Position numbers and translations under genes: made by a program. Shown here in pieces: positions 1 through 9,245 of a stretch of 11,691 nucleotides of DNA. How positions within the stretch are numbered: position 1 is the stretch's first letter; every line of letters starts with the position of its first letter. This DNA is from a bacterium (GTDB lineage: Bacteria > Babelota > Babeliae > Babelales > RVW-14): positions 1 through 11,691 of the forward strand of contig JAUIHA010000014.1 of NCBI GenBank assembly GCA_030432505.1, in the 5' to 3' direction. The notes under the pieces were generated by a model that was not told where the DNA came from, did no database searches, and saw only the letters and a list, made by a program, of their open reading frames with translations.

Positions 1-1366
1 GGGCATCTTGAGCCTTTTGCATAAAAACATCAAAGTCATTAGCTAGCCCCGTGAGGGGATCGTTACTATGCTCATTTCTTCCACGTAAATCGCATAGGCC
101 AACAAGGGCAAGTTGGCGCATGGAAACCTCAGGAGCAAGTTTATTCGCCAGGCGCTTGTATGCTTTTGCCCCTGCCTGTTCTTTAACAAAAAGACGTGCC
201 TGCATATGGTGCTTAACCAGTTTGCCAACCGCTTTGATAAGCGTTGCGTTGCGGGTAAAGCGTTTCAAAAGTTTTTGTGCAAGGGGAACGCCTGCTTCTG
301 CATGGCCATGGCAATGCAAATTTTCATCGGTATGAGTTGCTTTGCCAAGGTCATGGCAGAGTGAGCCAAGCATAATCATAAATTTTTCTTCTACGGCTGT
401 TTTTGTTTCAGTTTCTTGATATTCATCAAGGGTTGCTGCGGCATCAAGTGCCTGCATAGTGTGTTCAAAGACATCACCTTCTGGGTGGTAGTCTTTGCGT
501 TGTGGAACATCAACTAATGCATGAAGTTCTGGGAAAAGTTCTTTGAGCCGGCCAATGTCTTTGAGCCAACGAAAGCCAAGTGATGGACGGTGTGAATGCA
601 AAAATAGTTTTTTTATTTCCTCATAGATACGTTCGCGTGCAAGAGGTGCGTCTGTATACTCATCATATAAGCTCATGGTTGAGCAGAGATCATTAAGCTG
701 CTTGTCTGGAAACATTTCAAAGCGGCCTATGAATTGCATAACGCGATAAAAACGAAGTGGATCCTCAAGAAAGAGTTGTGTGTCAACGGCACGCAGCTCT
801 TTTTTTTCGAGTGCATCAAGGCCGTTGTAAGGATCGATGATTGTGAGGCCAAGTTTTTGCCACACACTATCACGCTCATCCTGAGGCGCTCCCGCAGGGT
901 GCCTTGAAGGGTCATCCTGTGATGTCATCCCGGACTCCGATCCGGGATCCAAATATAGTTCCATATTCTTACTCAAACTATTTAAATTAATAGCCATAGC
1001 ATTCATGGTTAAATCACGCCGCTGTGCTGCTTGCTCAATAGTCATGTGTGGATCAATTTCAACTGTAGGCTTGCGTCCTTTGTTGTCTTTGCGAGGAAGT
1101 GACCAATCAATGTCGAGATGATAGAGGCGCAGGACCCCGAATTTTTTGCCAAGAAGTTTGACGGGGCCAAATTTTTTAAGTGCTTCTTCAAGCTTTTCGA
1201 GCGTGAGGCCATGAACTTCTATATCAAAATCTTTAATTGGTCTGTTAAGGACAAGGTCTCGTACGGTGCCGCCAACAAGATAGCAGGATCCACCACTATT
1301 TTTTATTTCATCAACAATTGGTAAGAGTTGTTTGCATATTTCTAAAAAAGCCTTGATACATTTCAT
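1..1366 (-). CDS. cca: CCA-adding enzyme / tRNA nucleotidyltransferase with HD domain (3' end outside window)
   Basis: Adds or repairs the 3' CCA end of tRNAs in the cytoplasm. The minus frame is open for 455 codons from ATG 1364-1366 to the left edge, so the C-terminus is missing. Nucleotidyltransferase head: YLVGGTVRD at residues 29-37 and DFD at 46-48, the metal-binding acidic pair. Next come RRDLTMNAMA from residue 116, DPYNGL at 178-183 and EDPLRFYRV from 201, all family signatures. An HD phosphohydrolase domain follows, with FEHTMQALD (His302) and LCHDLGKAT (His338-Asp339), as in the E. coli type of class II enzyme. The start is supported by GGAG at 1373-1376, six bases upstream. Oddly, about 45 residues (roughly 129-173) sit between the RRD motif and the DPYNGL strand, where relatives have a short loop; this stretch is encoded by palindromic repeat DNA and stays in frame. 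A poly(A) polymerase of the same superfamily is the main alternative. Confidence 0.93.
   Translation of the reverse strand, partial: MKCIKAFLEICKQLLPIVDEIKNSGGSCYLVGGTVRDLVLNRPIKDFDIEVHGLTLEKLEEALKKFGPVKLLGKKFGVLRLYHLDIDWSLPRKDNKGRKPTVEIDPHMTIEQAAQRRDLTMNAMAINLNSLSKNMELYLDPGSESGMTSQDDPSRHPAGAPQDERDSVWQKLGLTIIDPYNGLDALEKKELRAVDTQLFLEDPLRFYRVMQFIGRFEMFPDKQLNDLCSTMSLYDEYTDAPLARERIYEEIKKLFLHSHRPSLGFRWLKDIGRLKELFPELHALVDVPQRKDYHPEGDVFEHTMQALDAAATLDEYQETETKTAVEEKFMIMLGSLCHDLGKATHTDENLHCHGHAEAGVPLAQKLLKRFTRNATLIKAVGKLVKHHMQARLFVKEQAGAKAYKRLANKLAPEVSMRQLALVGLCDLRGRNEHSNDPLTGLANDFDVFMQKAQDA
866..920. repeat. Palindromic element inside cca (first half of insert)
   Basis: GC-rich imperfect hairpin inside the cca reading frame. 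GAGGC at 883-887 pairs with GCCTT at 901-905 (one G-T pair), with an inner CCC (891-893) and GGG (897-899). The boundaries are approximate. It abuts the second palindrome at 923-954, and together they supply the extra residues of the enzyme. No second copy of this subtype was found in the window, so calling it a separate repeat is inferred from its structure and position. Confidence 0.5.
923..954 (-). repeat. Dispersed palindromic element inside cca, in frame
   Basis: Copy of the dispersed family seen elsewhere at 1636-1668. The stem CCCGGA (929-934) pairs with TCCGGG (941-946) around a six-base loop. The flanks are TGTCAT on one side and GGATCCAAAT on the other, the same flanks as the intergenic copies. 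Read on the minus strand it encodes YLDPGSESGMTS without a stop and keeps the cca frame on both sides. Confidence 0.85.
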
Positions 1367-1391
1367 TTTATGCTCCGGTTTTGTGGGCGAT

Positions 1392-1423
1392 GTCATGCTG
1401 AGCTTGTTTCTCAGCATCCAAAT
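1392..1423 (-). repeat. Dispersed palindromic element, GCTGAG-stem subtype
   Basis: Stem TGCTGAG (1396-1402) pairs with CTCAGCA (1410-1416) around CTTGTTT. The GTCAT and ATCCAAAT flanks match the other family members, in minus orientation. It lies 26 bases upstream of the cca start, so it probably falls in the cca leader or promoter region. Confidence 0.75.
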
Positions 1424-3512: not shown

Positions 3513-3572
3513 TTAAGTTATAAATGGCTTGAGTATTAGATAATGTTAAGTGGTATACGGTTATAGACAGAT

Positions 3573-3602
3573 GTCACCCTGAACTTGATTCAGGGTCCAA
3601 CT
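3573..3602 (-). repeat. Dispersed palindromic element, CCCTGAA-stem subtype
   Basis: GTCA flank, stem ACCCTGAA pairing with TTCAGGGT, CCAA flank. It is almost identical to the reverse complement of 1455-1489. Confidence 0.8.
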
Positions 3603-3693
3603 ATTATTCCTTTTAGTTAAAATAATAAAGAAAAATAAGTTGAGGCTGTAAGAAATAAATTTTATTAAGACATAAAAATTTTTAAGGAAGTAC

Positions 3694-3725
3694 ATTTGGA
3701 TCCTGAATCAAGTTCAGGATGACAT
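3694..3725 (+). repeat. Dispersed palindromic element, TCCTGAA-stem subtype
   Basis: ATTTGGA flank, stem TCCTGAA pairing with TTCAGGA, TGACAT flank. It faces the copy at 3573-3602 in inverted orientation with about 91 AT-rich bases between. Its right flank is the start of the 27-base tandem repeat. Confidence 0.8.
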
Positions 3726-3772
3726 CACTTAGTATCGTTATCCGTATGACATCACTTAGTATGGTTACCCGT
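3719..3772. repeat. Tandem duplication, 2 x 27 bases
   Basis: Positions 3719-3745 and 3746-3772 are direct repeats starting ATGACATCACTTAGTAT, differing at two positions (25 of 27 identical). The first unit includes the right flank of the palindromic element at 3694-3725, so the duplication happened after that element was in place. Confidence 0.85.
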
Positions 3773-5427: not shown

Positions 5428-7407
5428 ATGACCAGTTCTAAACGCATCATGTTGTTGTCTCTTGCTGCGCTCGGGTTTGTATGCTCAGGTCCAGTGATGG
5501 CAAAAACAAAATATAAAAATAAAAAATTGGACAAGCGTCCTATCACTATCAAGCGTGGTGATTCTGCGCTTACCGTTGGTGGTAAGACTAGGATTGAGCA
5601 TTACTTCAAAAAACATGTTGCAATGCTGAACAATAGCCTTCCTGATCAAGCTGAATATTTCAAACATTATGTTGATGTTCTTTTTGATTATAATGTAGGT
5701 CAAAAAAAATATGGTCACAAAGCGGTACAAGCATTTGTTGATTTGCGTCACAAAGGTGTTTGGGGACTTGGTTCAACATTTGCTGATTCAGATGCTTCAC
5801 TTCCTACAAACGTTCAAATTAGTGACTCTGTGCTTAAAGATCACTCACACCAAAATGGTAAGCCACTTGTATGGGTGAAAGATGCTTGGCTTCAGTTCAG
5901 TTTTAACGCTGCATTAAACCAGTATAAAAAACATAATGTTCACTATATTAAGTTTGGTTGGTTCCCATTTGAACTTGGTCGTGGAATTTCTCTTGGTGCA
6001 GTATATGGCTTGAATCGTGAAGGTCTTGGTCTTTACAGTTACCCAGAAGATAAATCAACTCCAGGTATCAACATTAGTGGTGAAATCATCAAGAAAAGAT
6101 TGTCTTATGATCTTTACTACTCAAAATTCGAAGAGCGTGACAAGAGTTTACGTTATACATTGAATACTGTTAAAGAGCAACATCTTGGCAGAAAAGCAAA
6201 CCCATGGAGAGGTGTTGGTAAAGATGACGAAGTATTTGCTGCTCGCTTGAAGTGGAAAGCACTTAAAGACAGCAAATTTGGTACGCTTGATCTTGAACCA
6301 TACGTTTTCTACAACGAAGCTTCAGATCAAACAACTGAGGTCATTGCTGATACAAAAACTGAGCTTGGTTCATTAGGTCTTGCATTTGAACATAAGTACA
6401 AGCACTTTGAAATTGGTGGTGAAATTGCAACCAACTTTGGTGATGAAATTTTACAAGCGATTGATCGTAACCATGTTACACTTGAGCGTGATCCAAACGG
6501 ACAACTTGTTGAAGTATTTTCACATATCTATGATGAAAATAGACTAGATGCTAATGGTAAACCTTCACGTGCACTTGTAACACAGGATAACCAGCCAGCA
6601 GCGCTTAAAGAAAAAGATCAGGCTTTACATCTTATGACTCTTCACAATGCTGATCCTAATGATGCTTTATTCGCTACACATAACATTAAAGTTAAAAACA
6701 GATTCAGAGATTCATACAAAAACAGACTTCGTGGTTGGATGGCTGTAGTTGATATGGCATATACTTCAGAAGACTATGGTTTTTCTGTTGCAACTGGTTA
6801 TGGTTATGCGTCTGGTGATACAAATCCACACGTTGAAGAGAAAAACAAAACCTATGAAGGTTTCATTGGTCTTCATGAGTTATACACAGGTAAACGCATC
6901 AAGAGTGTTTTCTTTGATGACAGACTCTTGAAGATTCCTTCATCTCTTGGACCAAGTGATGATGTTGTAACTCAAGAACTTGCATTTACAAACATGCACC
7001 AACTTGGTTTTAGTGCAACATGGCAGCCTAACTGCTTCAAGAAGAAGAAGTTTAGAGTTAATCCAAACATGCTTCTTTTCTGGAAAGCTAAAAAATCATT
7101 CAAGTGGGAGCTTGATCAAGCAAATAACATAGATAGACGTTCTGACGAACTAGCTCGTCGTTACGTAGGTACAGAGCTTAACTTGATGGCAGATTTTCAA
7201 CCGATTAAAGACTTAACCGTATATGGTTACTTTGCGGCATTTATTCCAGGTAGCTTCTATGACGACATTAAAGGAACTCCACTTTCAAAAGATTTCTTTA
7301 AAGTTGTACAGACTAAAGCTCCTGAAACAGACTTAGAGAAGCAAGACTTTAGAATTGGTGATGATAATGCATACCACATGAACATTGGTATGACATACAA
7401 ATTCTAA
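5428..7407 (+). CDS. Outer-membrane beta-barrel (porin-like) protein
   Basis: The 659-residue exported protein probably forms a beta-barrel in the outer membrane; its substrate is unknown. Residues 1-25 are a typical signal peptide (KR, then LLSLAALGFVC, cleavage after PVMA). The mature part has no long hydrophobic helix but many alternating aromatic/polar strands, such as HYIKFGWFPFELGRG, DLEPYVFYNEA and GFSVATGYGYASG. It ends in MTYKF, the terminal phenylalanine preceded by alternating residues that the BAM machinery recognises. The mature N-terminus is very lysine-rich. I could not assign a named porin family; some strands recall alginate-export-type barrels, a weak impression only. An extended ribosome site precedes the ATG and a strong hairpin terminator follows the stop. 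A partial paralogue of the last 144 residues lies at 8250-8672. Confidence 0.9.
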   Translation: MTSSKRIMLLSLAALGFVCSGPVMAKTKYKNKKLDKRPITIKRGDSALTVGGKTRIEHYFKKHVAMLNNSLPDQAEYFKHYVDVLFDYNVGQKKYGHKAVQAFVDLRHKGVWGLGSTFADSDASLPTNVQISDSVLKDHSHQNGKPLVWVKDAWLQFSFNAALNQYKKHNVHYIKFGWFPFELGRGISLGAVYGLNREGLGLYSYPEDKSTPGINISGEIIKKRLSYDLYYSKFEERDKSLRYTLNTVKEQHLGRKANPWRGVGKDDEVFAARLKWKALKDSKFGTLDLEPYVFYNEASDQTTEVIADTKTELGSLGLAFEHKYKHFEIGGEIATNFGDEILQAIDRNHVTLERDPNGQLVEVFSHIYDENRLDANGKPSRALVTQDNQPAALKEKDQALHLMTLHNADPNDALFATHNIKVKNRFRDSYKNRLRGWMAVVDMAYTSEDYGFSVATGYGYASGDTNPHVEEKNKTYEGFIGLHELYTGKRIKSVFFDDRLLKIPSSLGPSDDVVTQELAFTNMHQLGFSATWQPNCFKKKKFRVNPNMLLFWKAKKSFKWELDQANNIDRRSDELARRYVGTELNLMADFQPIKDLTVYGYFAAFIPGSFYDDIKGTPLSKDFFKVVQTKAPETDLEKQDFRIGDDNAYHMNIGMTYKF

Positions 7408-7419
7408 AATTGTTCTTAG

Positions 7420-7467
7420 AAACAATAAAAAAGACGCTCGTTTTCGCGAGCGTCTTTTTTATTGTTT
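7420..7467. terminator. Bidirectional Rho-independent terminator, 21-bp perfect stem
   Basis: Arms 7420-7440 and 7447-7467 pair perfectly around a six-base loop (TTTTCG). The core GACGCTCG/CGAGCGTC is flanked by A6 on the left and T6 on the right, so each strand gives a GC stem followed by U residues. It starts 13 bases after the barrel stop and also lies 57 bases beyond the stop of the convergent gene at 7524. Confidence 0.95.
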
Positions 7468-7523: not shown

Positions 7524-8120
7524 CTAGTCGTAAAGACTATAATCTAAATCAGGATCATCATCAGAATGATCTGAGTCAGGATCGTCATCATCAGAATGAT
7601 CTGGGGGTGCTATTGTAGTATAACCATCACCACCAAATTTAGTCCAACGTTTATCGTTGCTATCGTCACTAGGAGGCTTGCGAAAGTGAATCAAAGATCC
7701 TCCACTAGCAGTTGAAATTGTATCAAAAGGGGTTTCTCCGAGTGATTGTATGTTCTTTGAACCGTCTTTCTGTATAGATATAACTGTTACATGTTTTATA
7801 TTTCCTTTAATTATTAATTTATCCGTATTAATATCAGCCATTGCTACCCATGTTTTGTTTCCAATCAAAATAAGAAGATTTTTGCCATCTTGTAGGTTTA
7901 CCTCAAAGGTTCCGTCAGCAAAGTTTTTGCGAGGGAGTGGAGCGGGAAGAGGTATCCCTGATCTTATCATATCACTATAGGTAGTATTATTAGGGATGCT
8001 ATGCACTTTAATGCGATGGGGAGACTGATTATCTATCGTAATCTTATAGGCGTGTATGCATTGAGTTCCGAGTAACCCTAGGGTTACCAGGAGTGTGAAC
8101 TGTAATTTTTTATTTATCAT
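7524..8120 (-). CDS. Secreted protein with Asp-rich C-terminal tail, unknown function
   Basis: I do not recognise the family. The 198-residue product starts with a signal peptide (MINKKLQFTLLVTLGLLG, cleavage likely after CIHA at residue 24), and no lipobox is present. The mature part begins YKITIDN and has alternating hydrophobic strands to about residue 120 (NLLILIGN, KLIIKGN, HVTVISI), suggesting a small beta-sandwich. A Gly/Ser/Thr-rich linker follows, then a tail (172-198) with 13 aspartates in 27 residues, built from two copies of DHSDDD(D)PD. The start was set at ATG 8118-8120 because GGGA (complement of 8127-8130) lies six bases upstream; an in-frame start at 8153 would add 11 polar residues before the signal peptide. 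It converges on the barrel gene and shares its terminator. Its leader and mature start resemble those of the protein at 8704-9018. Confidence 0.82.
   Translation of the reverse strand: MINKKLQFTLLVTLGLLGTQCIHAYKITIDNQSPHRIKVHSIPNNTTYSDMIRSGIPLPAPLPRKNFADGTFEVNLQDGKNLLILIGNKTWVAMADINTDKLIIKGNIKHVTVISIQKDGSKNIQSLGETPFDTISTASGGSLIHFRKPPSDDSNDKRWTKFGGDGYTTIAPPDHSDDDDPDSDHSDDDPDLDYSLYD
7549..7603 (-). repeat. Intragenic tandem repeat coding the Asp-rich tail
   Basis: Units 7549-7573 (25 bases) and 7576-7603 (28 bases) are identical apart from one extra codon in the second; both carry TCATCATCAGAATGATCTG. They encode DHSDDDPD and DHSDDDDPD. A repeat that changes by whole codons suggests slippage in a tolerant, disordered tail. 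Confidence 0.85.
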
Positions 8121-8249
8121 ATTTTGTCCCTTTCTGAAGATAAGTGTTATCACTTCAGCTTAGAAGTCTTTTGTCTGCTATTTCTAATTGTAAATTATTT
8201 TAATTCAGAAAGGCAAGGGATCGTTGATTTTAAAGGGTTTTCTCTATTG

Positions 8250-8672
8250 CAAGAACTGGCATTCACGAATATGCACCAACTTGGTTTTAGCGCTACATGG
8301 AAGCCTAACTGCTTTAAAAAGAAGAATGTCAAAATTAATCCAAACATGCTCCTTTATTGGAAAGCTAAAAAATCATTCAAATGGGATCTTGATGCTGACA
8401 AGCGTTCTGATGAACTTGCGCGTCGCTATGTAGGTGTAGAGTTTAACTTGATGGCTGATTTCCAAACGCTTAAAGGCTTGCCCGTGTATGGTTACTTTGC
8501 GGCATTTATTCCAGGAAGTTTCTATGACGATATTAAAGGGATCAAGCTTTCAAAAGATTTCTTTAAAGTTGTACAAGCAAAAGCTCCAGAAACAGACTTA
8601 GAGAAGCAAGACTTTAGATTGGGTGATGATAACGCATACCACATGAACATTGGTATGACCTATAAATTCTAA
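8250..8672 (+). pseudogene. Truncated second copy of the outer-membrane barrel gene (3' part only)
   Basis: Residues encoded here align over 140 positions with residues 516-659 of the barrel protein at 5428-7407. By eye there are about 19 substitutions and one four-residue gap, and both copies end NIGMTYKF. Many DNA differences are synonymous, so the copy diverged while still under protein-level selection. The homology begins abruptly at CAAGAACTGGC (8250). The roughly 515 upstream residues, including the signal peptide, are absent. The frame is open back to 8124, but the residues before 8250 match nothing in the full copy and overlap the divergent gene's start. Without a signal peptide the product could not reach the outer membrane. 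It is best read as a remnant; use as a recombination donor for the full copy is possible. Confidence 0.87.
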
Positions 8673-8686
8673 AATGAATTAACATC

Positions 8687-8730: not shown

Positions 8731-9018
8731 AAAAATAATAGTGTTATGTTGATCCCGGTAAGGTCTAACATAACAAGATTCAGTAACTTTTATACAAAAA
8801 TCTTTAGAGCTTATTCTAAGTTCTTGCTTGTCTGATATATGTGCTACTATTCTTCCTTGTACGTAATGGATGCCGGGCTTCCCTTTTATTTGATATGAAA
8901 TAGGATATGTCTTTGAATCTGAAGCATCAATTGTTACAGCATATTCTGCTTGTAAAAATCCTATAAAAAAAGTGTAAATAGTAATTATAAGAGTTAACTT
9001 TAATTTTTTACTTATCAC
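8704..9018 (-). CDS. Small secreted protein, unknown function
   Basis: The 104-residue exported protein belongs to no family I recognise. The signal peptide is MISKKLKLTLIITIYTFFIG, with cleavage probably after LQA at residue 24; the mature part starts EYAVTIDASDS. Alternating short strands (KQELRISS, FCIKVTES, NTIIFEIKKD) and two cysteines about ten residues apart suggest a small disulfide-bonded beta fold in the periplasm or outside the cell. The start codon is GTG at 9016-9018, supported by AAGGAG (complement of 9026-9031) seven bases upstream. The first residues, the 24-residue leader length and the Y-x-(I/V)-TID mature start resemble the protein at 7524-8120, which also sits convergently behind a barrel gene. 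This one lacks the Asp-rich tail. The two are probably distant paralogues. Confidence 0.78.
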   Translation of the reverse strand: MISKKLKLTLIITIYTFFIGFLQAEYAVTIDASDSKTYPISYQIKGKPGIHYVQGRIVAHISDKQELRISSKDFCIKVTESCYVRPYRDQHNTIIFEIKKDTHN

Positions 9019-9245
9019 AATCCCTCTCCTTCAGTCTTAATAATAAAAGGTTTATTTGTATTGAATAATAATATTTTAATAAATAAAAAAGCAATATATT
9101 ATATTGCAAATAAATAGAATATTATAATTAAAAGCAGAATTATATTAGATTTTTAGGTTTCTGTCCCCAGGTTTGACCCAGGGACAGGAAAAATAGAAAT
9201 TCTTAGATGAGAGAGTCATTTTCTTAAGAGATAGATAGAGGAAAG
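9019..9245. other. AT-rich spacer with two palindromes
   Basis: This 227-base region between trxA and the small secreted protein gene, both on the minus strand, is very AT-rich from 9040 to 9150. It includes a short inverted repeat GCAATA/TATTGC (9091-9107) whose minus strand contains TATAAT, a possible -10 box for the secreted gene, though no matching -35 was seen. A GC-richer palindrome at 9161-9188 is listed separately. Confidence 0.5.
9161..9188. repeat. GC-richer palindrome downstream of trxA
   Basis: CTGTCCC pairs with GGGACAG, with an inner CAGG/CCCA-type partial pairing. It lies 58 bases past the trxA stop and lacks a following T run on the minus strand, so it is a poor terminator. 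Its centre, GGTTTGACCC, loosely resembles the CCCTGAA-type dispersed elements, but the ATTTGGA and TGACA flanks are missing. Family membership is uncertain. Confidence 0.5.

Follow-up and report, generated by a model that had tools for sequence, protein, structure and literature searches.

A CGTC-type REP hairpin and a second dispersed repeat within the reading frame of the cca gene of a Dependentiae bacterium

The window, the whole stretch of 11,691 nucleotides analysed here, is one complete contig (C95) of a MAG from an uncultured Candidatus Dependentiae bacterium. This genome, named G000 below (G001, G002 and so on are the other genomes of the comparison set), comprises 962 kb in 170 contigs and is 59% complete. 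The left end of the window is occupied by cca, whose frame is open from position 1366 to position 2 of the minus strand and carries PolyA_pol, RNA-binding and HD domains identified by family-model search. Solved structures matching the predicted Cca model are tRNA-processing and CCA-adding enzymes. Judged from its sequence, the product is a tRNA nucleotidyltransferase of the Cca type, and a search for Cca across the phylum gave a match in 90 of 101 genomes. The features of this region and of its surroundings are the following:

2..1366, minus strand: cca (class II tRNA nucleotidyltransferase), 455 codons in the window, the 3' end lying past the contig end
872..955, minus strand: repeat-derived in-frame insert Y138–R165 (YLDPGSESGMTSQDDPSRHPAGAPQDER), ~28 codons, ends approximate
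871..918, minus strand: second dispersed repeat, AGGATGACCCTTCAAGGC...GCGCCTCAGGATGAGCGTG, with core GCTCATCCTGAGG; seven cores in G000 including that of cca
923..951, plus strand: CGTC-type REP hairpin of 29 nt, TGTC-ATCCCGGA-CTCCGA-TCCGGGAT-CCA (tag, 8-bp stem, 6-nt loop, CCA tail)
952..962, minus strand: extension GGAACTATATT, found in the near-identical form GGAATTAYATT at several intergenic copies of G000
1391..1420, plus strand: another TGTC...CCA hairpin just upstream of the cca start, with an 8-bp stem and a 7-nt loop
1641..1669, minus strand: intergenic copy of the 29-nt hairpin of cca, between cca and the next gene
3697..3724, minus strand: 28-nt hairpin TGTC-ATCCTGAA-CTTGA-TTCAGGAT-CCA with a 5-nt loop, contained in one arm of an inverted pair; the second arm is at 3570-3612

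The spacer from the conserved NAMA motif to the start of DPYNGL has 52 residues in the Cca of the window. It measures 9–31 residues in 41 of the 42 genomes where it can be measured and 89 residues in G002. The search covered 49 genomes, G000 included, among which 44 relatives were matched, 43 aligned and 42 measurable; one relative with a C-terminal match only and one with a split frame were left out of the count, which was taken from aligned relatives only and not from the 101-genome search. Distant relatives have a turn of 9 residues at this position, and the eight other measurable relatives of the same family have 15–31 residues. The real excess is therefore ~21–37 residues, and the insertion site is a loop already lengthened and variable in the family. 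Subtraction of the 28 repeat-derived residues from the spacer leaves 24, a length within the range of the family. The initial annotation had proposed about 45 extra residues, a figure that holds against the turn of distant relatives and is too high for members of the family; the segment it delimited, 857–982 (residues 129–170), contains the insert together with native residues on both sides. Its prediction that the insert is absent from relatives was borne out in all those measured, and the frame is kept across the insert without a stop, as it had stated. The closest relatives compared are at most ~61% identical to the window's protein in Cca, so that no empty site or target duplication is visible.

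Irregularities were also seen in the Cca frames of other genomes. That of G041 (L018) has TGA and TAA codons inside and that of G008 (L043) an internal TGA close to the contig end; either decay or assembly error may account for these stops. The Cca of G043 (L040) has a 24-residue insert with repeated DGHHLDGCSLDG-type letters, positioned upstream of the conserved RRD motif.

The DNA of the insert in the window is composite. At 1635–1669 the hairpin of 923–951 recurs in inverted orientation (35 nt, 91% complementary), in agreement with the earlier proposal that cca holds a copy of the palindromic element found in the intergenic spaces. The palindrome is thus present as described, and it is accompanied by a second repeat (871–918) that the initial annotation did not separate from it. 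The stem of the cca hairpin is undecayed, with 8 bp and no mismatch, and the A/T-rich letters ahead of the 29-nt unit are near-identical in several intergenic copies of G000. For the 29-nt unit the folding energy is -13 kcal/mol (z -1.72), a value equalled or bettered by 14 of 200 shuffles; the whole composite insert, as RNA, is not more stably folded than its shuffles (z -0.47), and no match to Rfam was found at the gathering score. The motif ATGAC occurs twice in the 92-nt insert, corresponding to 21.7 per kb (both strands) versus 1.9 per kb in a sample of G000.

Repeated sequences of other types are found further along the window. A 27-nt direct duplication (3714-3767, 89% identical) abuts a REP unit and might record a repeat-associated duplication. 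The end of a 659-aa gene (5428-7407) is duplicated ~1.27 kb downstream (6973-7410 and 8250-8675, 87-88% identical), the duplicated segment adjoining two small genes on the opposite strand with similar starts (8092-8134 and 8990-9032). Directly past the gene ending at 7407 there is an inverted repeat of 21 bp without mismatch, its arms 6 nt apart (7420-7467), which resembles a terminator.

When up to 3 mismatches are allowed, the 29-nt unit is present at 20 places in G000, that of cca included, while a backwards control gave none. Classification against the genes predicted in the fetched contigs placed only 1 of 19 copies in a gene, that in cca, versus a random expectation of 84%; the twentieth copy is in no open frame of at least 120 residues with the hit inside. 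The cca copy is thus an exception among G000 copies that are otherwise intergenic. A related 26-nt type has 0 of 13 copies in genes. Two of the seven occurrences of the second repeat's core are genic: one is that in cca, and the other falls at residue 16 of a 532-residue frame with a doubtful start. Gene calling on G000 dropped 9 of 20 contigs, some short contigs reading N. A generic hairpin scan was built from the published CGTC REP definition (loops of 3–8 nt, one stem mismatch allowed, CCA required). Its yield was 14 units for the 241 kb scanned in G000 and 14 for 399 kb in G002. Loci totalling 57 kb in G003 contained 25 units and loci totalling 48 kb in G008 contained 15; these loci, as well as some of the G000 contigs, had been picked because they hold the unit. 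One block shuffle of the sequence of each of these four genomes contained no unit.

Across the phylum the unit was found, with up to 2 mismatches, in 11 of 101 Dependentiae genomes, with a control of 0. The exact 29-mer of cca is present letter for letter in G003, G005 and G046, and some other copies carry the tag CGTC in place of the TGTC of the cca copy. Predicted genes contain 5 of 26 copies in G003, where the fetched loci are 69% coding (28 hits less two duplicates from overlapping loci), and 6 of 17 in G008, where the loci are 64% coding and one in-gene copy lies at a start that may be wrong. In-gene copies at amino termini are unreliable because the simple gene caller takes the earliest start, and the location of in-gene copies in open frames is in part a product of the search, which was restricted to open frames. 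Family models identified TrmD, a histidine kinase, a glycosyltransferase, IleS and MutS as hosts of the in-frame unit in related genera, TrmD and the histidine kinase with two facing copies each. L139 and L144 were outside that search, and the G008 hosts L244, L253 and L254 gave no Pfam family match. The 165-aa ORF L065 was judged spurious and left out of the counts. The histidine kinase (MDPGSQSGMT), the glycosyltransferase (MDPGALPGMT) and IleS (MDLGSTSGMT) read the unit as cca does, while the remaining host proteins use other readings. Peptides resembling DPGSESGMT, which the initial annotation suggested to seek in other genes, are thus encoded in sister genera and in no other gene of G000 among the 19 copies classed there.

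The hairpin form is kept in these copies, as deduced from changes on both sides of the stem in 26 distinct units, most of them from loci chosen with a stem-biased pattern. Pair 11-18 is A-T in 16 units, C-G in seven, G-C in two and unpaired in one, and pair 5-24 is T-A in 20 units and C-G in six.

Repeats of other types also lie within genes in the phylum. The long spacer of the G002 Cca results from a different dispersed repeat; with 40 of the 69 candidates scored, it has at least 46 matches in G002, its own copy among them. A search with this insert gave 0 matches in G000, so that at that sensitivity the two Cca inserts are unrelated. The G002 repeat starts ~15 residues after NAMA and that of G000 ~14–16 residues after it, placing the two starts within about two residues of each other. 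The G002 repeat is ~125 nt in length. Cca and five further proteins read its long part in a single frame, the one frame without a stop in the Cca copy, and other proteins read it from the opposite strand. The repeat shows no significant extra folding (z -0.85). Predicted genes in the fetched G002 sequence contain 25 of its 52 pieces, including pieces of 21–30 nt, a proportion that is not a genome-wide rate because most loci were chosen for holding the repeat. Of the 51 repeat intervals in a 399-kb sample of G002, picked without regard to the repeat except for contig C12 carrying cca, 16 fall within predicted genes, and 33% of repeat bases are genic versus 86% coding overall. Six of these 16 intervals look like putative internal repeats of repeat proteins, and one of them like a putative ankyrin-type repeat. 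Family models identified Cca, MiaA, RsmE, an acyl-CoA ligase, a dehydrogenase fusion and MurE as G002 hosts of such other repeats. The acyl-CoA ligase (L140, 674 aa) has three separate in-frame repeat matches in one search, two of which recurred in another. In G003 the second repeat type is found in TilS, in BirA and, at another site, in Cca.

In the accessible parts of PMC3733652, a CGTC REP is an element with the tag CGTC, TGTC or CCTC, a stem of 8–9 bp starting with AT, a loop of 4–5 nt with exceptions, and a CCA tail. The cca unit has the TGTC tag, the AT-first 8-bp stem ATCCCGGA/TCCGGGAT and the CCA tail, and it is dispersed and mostly intergenic like these elements, some genic copies of which code for 20-30 residues as here. 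Facing pairs as in G003 are a further likeness, and the same source states that no dedicated transposase of CGTC REPs is known. The cca copy differs from a typical member by its 6-nt loop, a length shared by 22 of 25 units of the G003 loci, while a 5-nt loop is found in 10 of 14 units of the fetched G000 contigs and in all 14 of the G002 sample. It differs also by its host, outside the five phyla listed in that source (Proteobacteria, Chlorobi, Bacteroidetes, Spirochaetes and Thermotogae), and by the junction of the hairpin with a second repeat family.

The initial annotation had compared the insert with the palindromic elements (RPEs) described by Ogata and colleagues in Rickettsia genes. The comparison is upheld by the tag, stem and tail of the 29-nt unit, which fit the CGTC superfamily, and it is closer than had been thought because RPE-4 and RPE-6 belong to that superfamily: in R. 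conorii CGTC-1 is RPE-6 and CGTC-4 is RPE-4 (Di Nocera, De Gregorio and Rocco 2013, PMC3733652, available portion). RPE-4 and RPE-6 are likewise palindromic and are found in frame in conserved proteins that include tRNA enzymes and biotin ligase, and ATGAC is reported as frequent in RPE-4, -6 and -7 in the accessible part of PMC3767692. Organism and gene are different here, and the likeness is drawn from descriptions in the available portions of PMC3767692, PMC2229807 and PMC10969869, not from sequences. In-frame insertion that leaves the frame unbroken, as in RPEs, is seen in cca and in hosts of G002, G003 and G008. The G002 repeat, with a single reading frame shared by Cca and five other proteins, can be likened by description, as far as the sources extend, to long coding palindromes of the RPE-1 type.

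Other mobile elements compare less closely. GTAG REPs, which are mobilised by RAYT transposases according to the portion of PMC3733652 available, are alike in size and hairpin form, and the cca unit has TGTC in place of the GTAG tag. For MITEs, which are marked by terminal inverted repeats and a target-site duplication, the cca element is a hairpin unit and the limited identity of relatives in Cca leaves no empty site for comparison. Matches to Y1_Tnp were found in G001, G002, G004, G005 and G007 and none in G000 (59% complete), G003, G006, G008, G009 and G010; a Y1_Tnp transposase was rejected as the mover since its presence across genomes does not follow that of the repeats. A search of plasmid records with the repeat gave two weak partial matches, from Sphingobium and Streptomyces.

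An AlphaFold2 model of the window's Cca, built from an 11-sequence alignment, has a mean pLDDT of 88.3 and a pTM of 0.85. Residues 141–161, within the insert, form its sole stretch of at least three residues with pLDDT below 50. The helices predicted on its flanks, 128–137 and 162–171, have block means of ~64 and 58, indicating moderate confidence. In this model the insert fits a disordered loop, and the external loop foreseen in the initial annotation is consistent with the unstructured run predicted there. The insert is probably translated, to judge from the open frame, the enzyme presumably still works, and the effect of the insert would be near neutral. According to the accessible part of PMC2229807, a Rickettsia guanylate kinase bearing an RPE is translated and active, with a changed substrate affinity, which makes tolerance of the cca insert plausible.

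The reading favoured here, with a probability of roughly 0.87, is that a CGTC-type REP hairpin and a second dispersed repeat inserted into cca at a long variable loop and are tolerated. What the sequences establish is the insert, its repeat nature and open frame, its absence from the relatives measured, and parallel in-frame cases among the conserved genes of sister genera; its arrival by insertion is inferred. Both repeats would have entered through a mobiliser at a loop already variable in the family, and the composite, stop-free in the frame used, would be translated as ~28 residues of disordered loop. Selection would remove most genic insertions, the survivors being those that combine an open frame with a tolerant loop; the cca insert would be tolerated because its frame stays open and its loop is variable.

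The presence in two genera of repeat DNA starting at nearly the same position of Cca, together with the perfect stem of the cca hairpin, might indicate that a repeat-derived loop was retained in the catalytic head region for a role such as tRNA contact or regulation of Cca. Such co-option is unlikely, however: the G002 insert has no match in G000, the G003 repeat occupies another Cca site, similar repeats are found in many unrelated proteins, and the model attributes no confident structure to the insert. Alternatively, the element could act as a DNA or RNA hairpin within the gene (pausing, mRNA stability or attenuation), the peptide being a by-product. The stem kept through changes on both sides in the 26 units, from mostly stem-biased loci, and the folding of the 29-nt unit agree with this explanation, which is nonetheless quite improbable considering that the whole insert folds no better than shuffles and has no Rfam match at the gathering score. 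Stem conservation is moreover uninformative on cca in particular because it is a property of copies that lie mostly outside genes.

The insert is known from an assembly, and in a MAG of 170 contigs with the element at 20 places a metagenome assembler could have joined a repeat into cca. This artefact is very unlikely: both flanks are cca in one frame, which would require exit and re-entry in frame, and the same kind of in-frame insert is found in other genes of other genomes. Hairpin-type inserts that are skipped exist elsewhere, and the insert could in principle escape translation through skipping by ribosomes or processing. Nothing was found in favour of this possibility, the most improbable of all: skipping does not need an open frame, yet that of cca is open, although searches restricted to open frames would miss copies with stops. 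Insertion at a tolerant loop remains the preferred explanation.

In the accessible parts of the sources, Rickettsia is the main case described of frequent palindromic insertion in frame within conserved proteins, and intragenic REPs are recorded from other species. No report of in-frame palindromic repeats in Dependentiae, TM6, Babela or Babelota, or in Cca, was found among the papers listed by the literature searches, part of which were accessible only as excerpts, and the string 'palindrom' is absent from the main text of the papers on Babela, Chromulinavorax and Babelota. The kind of insertion is thus already known, while its phylum, its gene and the twice-used site were not found reported in those sources. 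For genome annotation, odd loops in essential proteins of MAGs can be repeat DNA.

Another phylum of intracellular bacteria is thus affected, partly in the same functional classes of proteins (tRNA enzymes and biotin ligase). With a second phylum, shared functional classes and one loop hit by two repeats, the question of whether such insertions are selfish or useful becomes testable by comparison. A broader proposal, held at slightly less than even odds, is that coding REP insertion is a continuing process at the level of the phylum in Dependentiae, in which CGTC-type hairpins and at least two other types of repeat would be mobile both within a genus and from one genus to another, would enter essential genes in frame time and again, and would share the Cca loop as a landing site. 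If this is true, Dependentiae would stand beside Rickettsia as an independent second system in which to test how new protein segments are built by repeat insertion.
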